Translations under genes and position numbers: made by a program
Shown: positions 39,066-46,635 of the stretch, in pieces
How positions within the stretch are numbered: the first letter of the stretch is position 1
Layout of the letters: each line of letters starts with the position of its first letter
Origin: Thermococcus thermotolerans
Lineage (GTDB): Archaea > Methanobacteriota_B > Thermococci > Thermococcales > Thermococcaceae
Direction: 5' to 3'
Length of the DNA stretch: 64,000 bases
NCBI RefSeq assembly: GCF_024707485.1
Contig: NZ_CP102602.1
Location: 682,001 to 746,000 of the forward strand
Notes under the pieces: generated by a model
Database searches by the model: none
Told to the model about the DNA's origin: nothing
Seen by the model: only the letters and a program-made list of their open reading frames with translations

Positions 39066-39109
39066 TTCAGTGCATTAATGTATGAAGTAATCCTTTGGGG
39101 GTGAATATC

Positions 39110-39286
39110 ATGAAGAGGAAGGCCCAGGGTGCTATCGAGTATCTGTTTATGATTGCAGCTGCCTTGATAATAATCCTGATTGTGGTCAGGCAGCTCCAGG
39201 GTAGAACCAGCAGTGCCACCAACACCATAAACAGCACTGCCAATGAGCTTAACCAGAGCCTCCAAAACCTCAACCAGAGCGGCTGA
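39110..39286 (+). CDS. Class III signal peptide pilin-like protein (58 aa)
   Basis: A 58-aa prepilin-like protein: MKRKAQGAIEYLFMIAAALI, i.e. basic head, cleavage site before QGAIEY, then an uninterrupted hydrophobic helix, and a short tail of Asn/Gln/Ser/Thr (NTINSTANELNQSLQNLNQS). This is the class III signal processed by an FlaK/EppA-type prepilin peptidase; the exposed tail is extremely small, so the filament would be almost all helix core, with possible N-glycosylation sites (NST, NQS). ATG 39110 follows GGGGGTGA. Confidence 0.85.
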   Translation: MKRKAQGAIEYLFMIAAALIIILIVVRQLQGRTSSATNTINSTANELNQSLQNLNQSG

Positions 39287-39363: not shown

Positions 39364-39555
39364 GTGAGTAGGAACGCCCAAGCGTCTTTGGAGTACATCA
39401 TGATGTTCGCTGTTGGCATGCTAATTGCTGCCATAATAATATACCGGCTGATAGGGATCAAAGGACTTGCCAAATGGGCAGGGAGCCAAATGAATAGTAC
39501 AGGCAAGGAGATTGCAGAAGGCTTTCAGAATTTAAGCAATACATCAAACCAATAA
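39364..39555 (+). CDS. Class III signal peptide pilin-like protein (63 aa)
   Basis: A 63-aa protein starting at GTG 39364 with GGTGGT four bases upstream. MSRNAQASLEYIMMFAVGML shows the same class III signal (A|QASLEY) and hydrophobic helix, then a short tail ending GFQNLSNTSNQ with NLS and NTS sequons. It lies 77 nt after the first pilin gene; the two probably form one filament as major and minor subunits. Confidence 0.82.
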   Translation: MSRNAQASLEYIMMFAVGMLIAAIIIYRLIGIKGLAKWAGSQMNSTGKEIAEGFQNLSNTSNQ

Positions 39556-41731: not shown

Positions 41732-42613
41732 TCAGTCCAGCACCTCGGCGAGCAGTTTTCTTATCCCCTCTTTTACGTCCTCCCCGTCCATCTGATAGGG
41801 CGATCTCAGGACAGGTTTTATCGAAAACCCCCTGAGCGACATTGCAAGCTTTATTGCCGAGCCAAAGGACGAGGCAAGGTCATAGACCTTGGAGAGCTTT
41901 GCCAGTCTTCTCGCATGCTCAAAGGCTTCTTCGAACCTCTTTTCCTGGAAGGCCCTGTAGAGAGCAAGATGAACCTCCGGGGCAAAGTTGGCACAGGCCA
42001 TTATACCCCCGTCCCCTCCAAGGATTAACGTGTTCAGGAAGTGCTGGTCGAGACCCGTGAAGACCCTGAAGTCCTTTCTCTCGCCCTTCACCTCAAGAAT
42101 CACGTCGCGGACGTGGTTGACGCTGTCTATCGTCTCTTTTACACCGGCGATGTTTGAGTACTCCAGGGCAAGGCGCTTGATGAGGGAAATACTGAGGGGA
42201 TTGGCGCAGGAGGGGATGTTGTAGAGTATGATTGGGATATCCGTCTTCTCCGCAACCATCGAGTAGTGCCTGAAGAGGGCGTCGTCATTGAGGGGGCAGT
42301 AGTATGGTGGGGCTATGACGACGTAATCTGCCCCGATATCCTGGGCATGCTTCGTAAGCTCAACCACCTCGAAAGTGTTGGAGGATGCGGTACCGACAAG
42401 GTAGAACGTCGAGTTAACGAGTTCCCTACCCTTCTCGGCCAGAAACTTCCTTTCCTCGATGCCGAGGCTCGTGAACTCCCCGGTTGTCGCGTTTATGAAT
42501 ATTCCGTGAACGCCGACCGTCTGGAGAAACTCGATGTGCTCCTCAAGCGCCGGAACGTCAACGGAGTAGTCCTCATTGAAGGGCGTCACAAGGGGCACTA
42601 TAACACCGCGCAT
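41732..42613 (-). CDS. DapA/N-acetylneuraminate lyase-family aldolase
   Basis: A 293-aa TIM-barrel class I aldolase. Schiff-base Lys is in IAGVKETIDS (about 158) and the catalytic Tyr in IILYNIPSCAN (about 130); the substrate-binding segment reads NATTGEF rather than the GTTGE of true DapA. Thermococcales make lysine by the aminoadipate-type route, so a role in 2-keto-3-deoxy sugar acid cleavage or another pyruvate aldolase reaction is more likely than dihydrodipicolinate synthesis. It is convergent with prf1 (2-nt gap) and monocistronic. Confidence 0.85.
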   Translation of the reverse strand: MRGVIVPLVTPFNEDYSVDVPALEEHIEFLQTVGVHGIFINATTGEFTSLGIEERKFLAEKGRELVNSTFYLVGTASSNTFEVVELTKHAQDIGADYVVIAPPYYCPLNDDALFRHYSMVAEKTDIPIILYNIPSCANPLSISLIKRLALEYSNIAGVKETIDSVNHVRDVILEVKGERKDFRVFTGLDQHFLNTLILGGDGGIMACANFAPEVHLALYRAFQEKRFEEAFEHARRLAKLSKVYDLASSFGSAIKLAMSLRGFSIKPVLRSPYQMDGEDVKEGIRKLLAEVLD

Positions 42614-42664
42614 GGAACCACCAGAGGGTTTTGGGGGATGGGGTATTTTAGGGTTCCGGAAAAG

Positions 42665-42707
42665 GTTTTAAGTATCGGTACCGATACCTGGTATCGGGGG
42701 CGATACC
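42665..42707 (+). promoter_or_regulatory. Promoter with two adjoining palindromic operators
   Basis: A TATA-like gttttaag (about 42665-42672) runs into the perfect 16-bp palindrome GTATCGGTACCGATAC (42672-42687) and, two bases on, GGTATCG-gggg-CGATACC (42690-42707), which ends directly before ATG 42709. Thus four copies of GTATCG in alternating orientation cover the predicted start of transcription. There is no GGTGA ribosome site. Confidence 0.75.
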
Positions 42708-42708
42708 T

Positions 42709-43779
42709 ATGCTCTTTGACCCGAGACCCAAAGAGAAGAGAGAAGACATGTTCGACCGCGATAGGGAATTTGAGGAACTCCTGCGTGGAATGGAGGAGTA
42801 CCCAATAACCATTCTCATTGGAATCCGTCGCGTGGGCAAGAGTTCCATTTTAAAGGTTGCTCTAAGGGAGTACGATGGGATTGGTGTCTATCTCGATGCA
42901 AGGAGATTATACGCCGCCGGAGGCGGAACGATGAGCCAGAGCATCCTAGTGGAAGAGCTCACTAGGATTCTAGCAGGAAAGGGCAGAATGGGGTTCCTGG
43001 CAGGAGTAAAGTTAGAACGGATTAGTCTTGGGGGTATAAGCATCAAACCCCGGGAGGCCACCATTATAGACGTATTTGAGCTCCTCAACGGCATTGGAGA
43101 AAGGTCTGGAAAAGTCCTTCTTGCATTCGATGAGGCCCAGTATCTTCGTTTTTATGGCTCGCGGGGTGGAAAGGACCTACTGGCCGGTATAGCATATGCT
43201 TACGATTCCCTACCGAACCTGGGCTTCGTTTTCACCGGCTCAGAAGTTGGTCTGCTCCATGATTTTATGGGAATTGATGACTACTCAAGTCCGCTGTTCG
43301 GCAGGGTATACGATGAAGTTGAAGTCAAACCATTTACAAGGGAACTTTCAGAGGAGTTTCTTTGGAGGGGGTTTAAAGAGGTCGGCCTAAGCGTTTCAAG
43401 GGGGGACATCCAAAGGGCTGTGGATGAGCTCGATGGTATTCCTGGCTGGCTTGTGGAGTTCGGTTTCAATTATTGGAAGAAGCGGAACTTCCAAAAAGCC
43501 CTTGAGACCACCATGGCTAAGGCAAGAACCATGATAAAAGAGGAATTACTGGAACTCGAAAAGCGCTCTCCCAGGTATCCCCTAATACTCAAGGCGGTCG
43601 CTATGGGTCTTTCACGATGGGGTGTCATCCGGGACTATGTTGAAGCCAAGGGTGGACCTATAACAAACGCAAGACTCGCCTCACTCCTTAAAAACCTGGA
43701 AAAGATGGGCTGGATAAGGAAGGAAAACGGCGAGTACCGGATAATCGACCCGGTGGTGGAAAGAATATTGAGAGGGTAA
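42709..43779 (+). CDS. Archaeal AAA/STAND-like ATPase with winged helix
   Basis: A 356-aa P-loop ATPase of the large archaeal ATPase family. Walker A GIRRVGKSS is at 38-46, Walker B VLLAFDEAQYL at about 137-147, a sensor FVFTGSEVGLL at about 176-186, and a C-terminal winged helix (ITNARLASLLKNLEKMGWIRKENGEYRIID, about 315-350). These proteins are abundant and variable in hyperthermophilic archaea; some are linked to mobile elements or defence, most are uncharacterised. The gene is monocistronic under a strong palindromic operator and appears leaderless or nearly so. Confidence 0.85.
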   Translation: MLFDPRPKEKREDMFDRDREFEELLRGMEEYPITILIGIRRVGKSSILKVALREYDGIGVYLDARRLYAAGGGTMSQSILVEELTRILAGKGRMGFLAGVKLERISLGGISIKPREATIIDVFELLNGIGERSGKVLLAFDEAQYLRFYGSRGGKDLLAGIAYAYDSLPNLGFVFTGSEVGLLHDFMGIDDYSSPLFGRVYDEVEVKPFTRELSEEFLWRGFKEVGLSVSRGDIQRAVDELDGIPGWLVEFGFNYWKKRNFQKALETTMAKARTMIKEELLELEKRSPRYPLILKAVAMGLSRWGVIRDYVEAKGGPITNARLASLLKNLEKMGWIRKENGEYRIIDPVVERILRG

Positions 43780-46065: not shown

Positions 46066-46635
46066 ATGCTCGGGCTCAATGTGGATGTTCCCAGAAGGAT
46101 CCTTGGCTACCTCCTCATCGTATTTCTCGTAGCTTCATTCGCCGGATATCTCTTCGCCGTTGGAAATCCCGGGGCAGCCATGGATGCCGTCAAAAAGCTT
46201 GCCGAGCAGATAGGCCCCATCTCCGAGTCCAGCTTTGAGAATTTCGTTAAGATATTCACCAACAACTCGATGGTGGCACTCTTCATGCTCCTATCGGGCC
46301 TCTTCTTCGGCCTGGGACCGTGGCTGATAATGGCCTTCAACGGATTTATGGTCGGCCTCGTCGTCAGGGCCGTTCAGGAGAGCGGGGAGCTTTCATTCCC
46401 CCAGATAATCCTGGGTCTGATACCCCATGGGATTATTGAGATACCCGCGATAGCGCTCGCGGGAGTTTCAGGTATCATCTGGTATAGGGAGATAATAAAG
46501 GGCGAGGGAGAAACGGGGGAGCGGTTCAAAAGAGGAGCGGTGAAGGCACTAAAGCTCTTTGCGCTTTCAGTGTTGCTCCTCCTTGTGGCGGCCGTTATTG
46601 AGGCCTACGTAACCCCGCGCGTTGCCGGTATCTGA
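46066..46635 (+). CDS. SpoIIM-like (stage II sporulation protein M family) membrane protein
   Basis: A 189-aa protein with about five membrane helices. The conserved FTNNSMVALFMLLSGLFFGLGPWLIMAFNGFMVG and LGLIPHGIIEIPAIALAG define the SpoIIM/DUF95 family. Function in archaea is unknown; in Bacillus SpoIIM acts with SpoIIP/D in wall remodelling during engulfment. It begins 9 nt after the lipoate accessory gene (GAGGTGAGGG site). Its last 69 nt overlap the convergent DUF354 gene. Confidence 0.88.
   Translation: MLGLNVDVPRRILGYLLIVFLVASFAGYLFAVGNPGAAMDAVKKLAEQIGPISESSFENFVKIFTNNSMVALFMLLSGLFFGLGPWLIMAFNGFMVGLVVRAVQESGELSFPQIILGLIPHGIIEIPAIALAGVSGIIWYREIIKGEGETGERFKRGAVKALKLFALSVLLLLVAAVIEAYVTPRVAGI

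Follow-up and report, generated by a model that had tools for sequence, protein, structure and literature searches.

What acts on the two palindromes that fill the space between the TATA box and the start codon of an ATPase gene in Thermococcus thermotolerans? We addressed this question in a 64,000-nucleotide stretch of the genome, referred to here as the window. The layout that an earlier sequence-only reading had described is confirmed by the sequence: a perfect 16-bp palindrome (GTATCGGTACCGATAC) is followed, after a gap of 2 bases, by a second perfect palindrome with 7-bp arms and a 4-bp spacer (GGTATCG-GGGG-CGATACC). The dyad centres are 19 bp apart, and the pair occupies the space from a TATA-like TTTTAAGT (42665-42672) to the ATG at 42709, with a BRE/TATA-like element directly to its left (Table 1). 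Elsewhere, the window encodes two tandem 63-aa open reading frames whose products have signal peptides of class III, the archaeal pilin-like kind (39095-39286 and 39364-39555, both on the + strand; the second scores under the Pfam cut-off) and a SpoIIM-family membrane protein (46066-46635, + strand, PF01944).

Table 1. Features of the ATPase gene and its promoter, in window coordinates.
Feature	Coordinates	Strand	Evidence
BRE/TATA-like promoter element GGAAAAGGTTTTAAGT	42657..42672	+	Sequence; same place relative to the operator in relatives; position predicted
Operator palindrome 1, half-sites GTATCG/CGATAC	42672..42687	.	Pattern searches; present in orthologues, exact in 14/22
Operator palindrome 2, GGTATCG-GGGG-CGATACC	42690..42707	.	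Pattern searches; GTATCGGGGGCGATAC exact in 20/22 orthologues
SD-like GGGGGCG inside palindrome 2	42696..42702	+	Sense-strand G-rich spacer in relatives; function predicted
STAND/AAA-type ATPase gene, 356 aa, PF01637 ATPase_2 and PF21100 MCM_C winged helix	42709..43779	+	Pfam, PDB relatives, AlphaFold2, fold search
C-terminal winged helix codons, residues 284-345	43558..43743	+	Pfam PF21100; AlphaFold2
Codons of residues 319-322 (T-N-A-R), recognition helix N-terminus, specificity residues	43663..43674	+	Covariation with operator

The palindromes are unique to this promoter. Exact copies of GTATCGN4CGATAC occur at 2 sites in the whole 2.07-Mb genome, both at the ATPase promoter, and a reversed-pattern control gives 0 genome matches. 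Within the window, the pattern has 11 matches at up to 3 mismatches, where 1.95 would be expected and none of 100 shuffles attains as many, and the matches with 0-1 mismatch are palindromes 1 and 2 only. The sequence-only reading had proposed to find a regulon through further sites of this kind in the genome. When a wider regulon was sought genome-wide with the arm GTATC and one mismatch, the 46 sites found did not exceed the 53 of the reversed control, and no wider regulon emerges on this measure.

The ATPase combines a PF01637 P-loop domain (64.3 bits against a Pfam cut-off of 33.2) with a PF21100 winged helix (45.2 bits against 27), and residues G38, R40, R41, G43, K44, D141 and E142 are invariant. 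The AlphaFold2 model has a mean pLDDT of 91, rising to about 95 in the winged-helix region, which consists of helices 289-298, 304-315 and 320-332 and a two-strand wing (336-339 and 342-345). In this model, the recognition helix begins with residue 320. Two PF01637 proteins of solved structure belong to the same family and share the fold, namely PABY2304 (PDB 2qen; full-length alignment E=5.6e-109, TM 0.90) and SSO1545 (PDB 2fna; E=9.3e-53, TM 0.83). They are the first hits in a fold search of the model, followed by Orc/Cdc6, CED-4 and RuvB. A Pfam search of the protein for an effector domain found none.

We found the operator to be a trait of the ATPase gene. Orthologues that are 67-76% identical are present in 23 of 61 genus genomes (one as a contig-edge fragment), and those with upstream sequence carry the same palindrome pair in the same place; the sequence-only reading, which had named absence of the palindromes before orthologues as grounds for its own rejection, therefore stands on this point. 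The site is thus an inverted repeat that overlaps the gene's own core promoter and is conserved in orthologues, as expected for an autorepressor. The operator goes with the ATPase because the gene adjoins argS in 24 of 24 orthologue records examined, while a dapA-like neighbour is detected within 1.5 kb in only 16. The operator is kept in the other 8, and a main role as operator of the divergent dapA-like gene (41732-42613) was rejected for this reason.

In relatives at 35-55% identity, the corresponding slot also holds an inverted repeat, but its sequence is specific to the lineage; the half-sites include AGTAAY, GGTAAY, ACTTAY, ACTTGY, ACTATC, ACTACT, ACTGGT and others. Paralogue lineages in Thermococcales and Crenarchaeota each have a distinct operator of their own, with four half-sites at a 19-bp pitch. 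T. thermotolerans itself encodes three further paralogues (L045-L047), each with a different double palindrome, as well as a paralogue of 29% identity (L048) with an imperfect element; one lineage (L038) has four tandem copies. Four-half-site agreement of at least 27/36 is reached by 81% of 188 family promoters, by 0 of 481 other own-genome promoters (from a background of 395 kb of own-genome stretches) and by 1 of 1500 random windows. Clusters 3, 4, 5, 7 and 17 have one long palindrome and fall outside the four-site layout, and the covariation code described below covers the four-site subfamilies only.

If the ATPase itself recognizes these sites, its DNA-reading residues should change with them. 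In a partial Mantel scan of one protein column at a time (30 protein units, 412 pairs with <62% ATPase-domain identity, 4999 permutations), we compared residue sharing with half-site sharing beyond the expectation from overall identity. Half-sites were extracted automatically, the operator register was fixed from DNA alone (set by hand, on the same basis, for three units) and the scan was limited to 267 informative variable columns. Residue 320 ranks first among the 267 columns (z=9.0, p=0.0002) and residue 319 second (z=3.7), and the top five 5-residue windows (n=352) all lie within 316-324. Residue 320 is still first when five units of uncertain register are left out (z=8.2); the ATPase-domain columns Y61 (z=5.7) and I58 then also rise, and shared ancestry is therefore not fully removed from the scan.

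The association with residue 320 takes a simple form. In a tally of 173 genes, all 105 genes with D or E at this position have C as the second base of the half-site, and 66 of the 67 with N, K, S or T have G; the sole exception (L251) is a register slip and has AGTTAC when read by eye. One gene with G320 and an ACT site (L077) lies outside these residue classes. That acidic residues should go with C, and N or K with G, is chemically plausible. The association between residue 320 and base 2 reaches a Cramer's V of 1.00 across 68 representatives; residue 319 associates most strongly with bases 4-5, and residue 322 does so with base 5. All 17 representatives with T-x-A have ATC, whatever residue 322 is, and TNA goes with GTATC in both Thermococcales and Crenarchaeota at about 38% ATPase identity.

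The rule was derived from the Thermococcales set and some crenarchaea, and the test set outside this derivation comprised Vulcanisaeta/Pyrodictiaceae loci and 29 further crenarchaeal genes. The test loci pair TNAT with AGTATT (L205), DDKK with ACTGGC (L206), SDGE with ACTACA (L208), DDRT with ACTGAA (L213) and NKKV with GGTTAC (L211). For test genes with a readable operator, D/E, N and K all gave the expected base 2; K320 was expected with GG, and L279 has AG. S and T at position 320 were new in the test set, and both went with G. On a tree restricted to the ATPase domain, we count 6 changes in residue class and 6 in base class, and independent pairs agree in 6 of 6 cases, or in 3 of 3 on well-supported branches (p=0.25). 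The recognition helix thus covaries with its site, as it should in an autorepressor.

Several observations lie beside this code. In clusters 3, 7 and 17 (L151, L136, L131), the single long palindrome (e.g. CCCCCCACCAGT-ACTGGTGGGGGG) apparently holds two inner half-sites only, and ACTGGT still fits by eye in cluster 17, which has DDKN. DUF234-type ATPase_2 genes of Thermococcus (L055-L059, L062, L065, L281-L310), located in the T. thermotolerans genome at about 80, 229, 438, 522, 788 and 1882 kb, often have palindromes between the TATA box and the start codon as well. These differ in geometry (e.g. ATTATCTTGGTGAAGATAAT, ATGATAATCGCAATTATCATAATGGTGATTATCAT), and this branch, the other large one among ATPase_2 genes, may be a parallel case of promoter palindromes. 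Many family members in Vulcanisaeta (G063; L205-L208, L213) are split by frameshifts or stops, and several of them keep intact operators and matching recognition helices.

We propose, with a probability of roughly 0.8, that the palindromes are a private operator of the ATPase itself, through which it would repress its own gene by means of its own winged helix. The sequence-only reading held that the regulator is not in the neighbourhood, and this is very probably wrong, as the evidence favours the protein that the gene itself encodes; its hint that the ATPase's own winged helix might be the binder is supported by the covariation. According to our model, each palindrome would be bound by a dimer of the ATPase by way of the C-terminal winged helix, and the two dimers, lying side by side 19 bp apart, would cover the DNA from the TATA box to the start codon and block initiation at the gene's own promoter. 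The half-site would be read by residues 319-322, at the N-terminal end of the recognition helix, with residue 320 setting base 2 (C for D/E, G for N/K/S/T) and residues 319, 321 and 322 going with bases 4-6. DNA binding presumably changes with the ATP state of the STAND module and with some trigger. Each paralogue would have drifted to its own half-site, leaving the copies in one cell largely insulated from each other. We infer repression, rather than some other effect, because the operator is positioned over the start region, and the dense and probably cooperative repression that had been suggested for this operator is in keeping with our findings.

An unlikely alternative is that the ATPase binds its operator mainly for some other DNA task, such as Orc1/Cdc6-like nucleation or chromosome organisation, or as an autoactivator, with the promoter being where the single site happens to be. 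The structural neighbours that follow 2qen and 2fna speak for such a task, and one nucleation site for each paralogue would give the same picture. However, each site invariably belongs to the promoter of the ATPase gene itself and lies in the stretch from TATA box to start codon, which is the classical repressor position in archaeal promoters, and genomes with several paralogues have a separate site for each. Still less probable is a separate regulator, encoded elsewhere, that binds the palindromes and has the ATPase only as its target, as was first thought. Though trans-acting regulators are common, the genome contains no other site for such a protein, and a dedicated regulator would be needed for each paralogue, yet in both phyla the operator sequence varies with the recognition helix of the ATPase itself. 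We disfavour this explanation because it would require coevolution with the ATPase recognition helix in every lineage.

The gene had also been described as leaderless, for which we find no support. Read on the sense strand, the spacer of palindrome 2 forms a run of G resembling an SD sequence (GGGGGCGAT), and a leaderless transcript is doubtful because this spacer is G-rich on that strand in 148 of 149 family genes; the palindrome 1 spacer has G-, C- or mixed orientation across the family. A leader of about 13-17 nt is predicted from the TATA-to-ATG distance. The gene thus probably lacks a leaderless transcript, and its arrangement suggests that the palindrome 2 spacer has a second function as the Shine-Dalgarno site of a short leader. 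Leader RNA hairpins that control translation would place this SD-like spacer in a loop, but we consider such a role for the inverted repeats very improbable, given that palindrome 1, located downstream of the TATA box but ahead of the expected start site, should be untranscribed, that imperfect pairs show little G-U preference (30 GU versus 21 AC in palindrome 1, 32 versus 25 in palindrome 2) and that the link to recognition-helix residues would be left unexplained.

A connection to defence or mobile elements, raised by the sequence-only reading, is likewise not borne out. PADLOC gives weak partial matches only, to PDC-S27 and PDC-S01 (23 and 21 bits), and a defence family was rejected on the basis of these matches, the conserved argS locus and the lack of an effector domain. 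We found no relatives in IMG/VR, phage and plasmid collections, and a mobile or viral origin was rejected on these grounds.

These results bear on proteins that have long had structures. Two crystal structures of the family (2006-2008) are without an assigned DNA target in the open-licence literature, where our search returned neither an operator or DNA target of 2qen/2fna-type ATPases nor a description of the palindromes of this ATPase promoter. In PMC5760070 and PMC4599002, SSO1545 is cited solely as a structural template. The covariation supplies a candidate target. Residues 319-322 are PEPR in 2qen and SDSE in 2fna, and the predicted half-sites are therefore ACTTAY for PABY2304 and ACTTCT for SSO1545. 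A DNA site that can be read from four residues, and predicted for both solved proteins, would represent a natural wHTH recognition code across two archaeal phyla and would yield candidate heat-stable repressor-operator pairs that are orthogonal to one another. The covariation also provides a direct handle on the role of the multiplying STAND ATPases. More tentatively, and with the odds somewhat against so broad a claim, this large class of archaeal STAND ATPases could consist of self-contained, mutually insulated one-gene switches that follow a simple code and act on their own promoter only. ATP- or trigger-driven oligomerisation would free the promoter, and each paralogue would work as an autonomous sensor in a feedback loop of its own, having diversified in the manner of toxin-antitoxin or restriction controller proteins, though with no partner gene.

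A comparison with known systems highlights both parallels and differences. Autoregulating winged-helix repressors such as the AbiEi antitoxin (PMC7319586) and Stf76 of pSSVx (PMC4027180) control their own promoter via more than one site, as we propose for the ATPase. Compared with these proteins, the putative repressor described here differs in being a STAND ATPase, in having no toxin partner or operon and in being multiplied into paralogues with private operators. MalT and IniR (PMC5760070) resemble the ATPase in joining an NTPase module to a DNA-binding domain, and regulated oligomerisation is plausible. Those proteins activate other operons and have sensor domains (PMC5760070), whereas the ATPase family is two-part, with 356 aa and no recognisable sensor domain in our protein, and apparently targets only its own gene. 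The Orc1/Cdc6 initiators (PDB 1w5t, 2qby) likewise have an AAA+ ATPase followed by a DNA-binding winged helix. In contrast to the sites of these initiators, those of the ATPase are not origins, and there is one double site per gene copy, always at the gene's own promoter.
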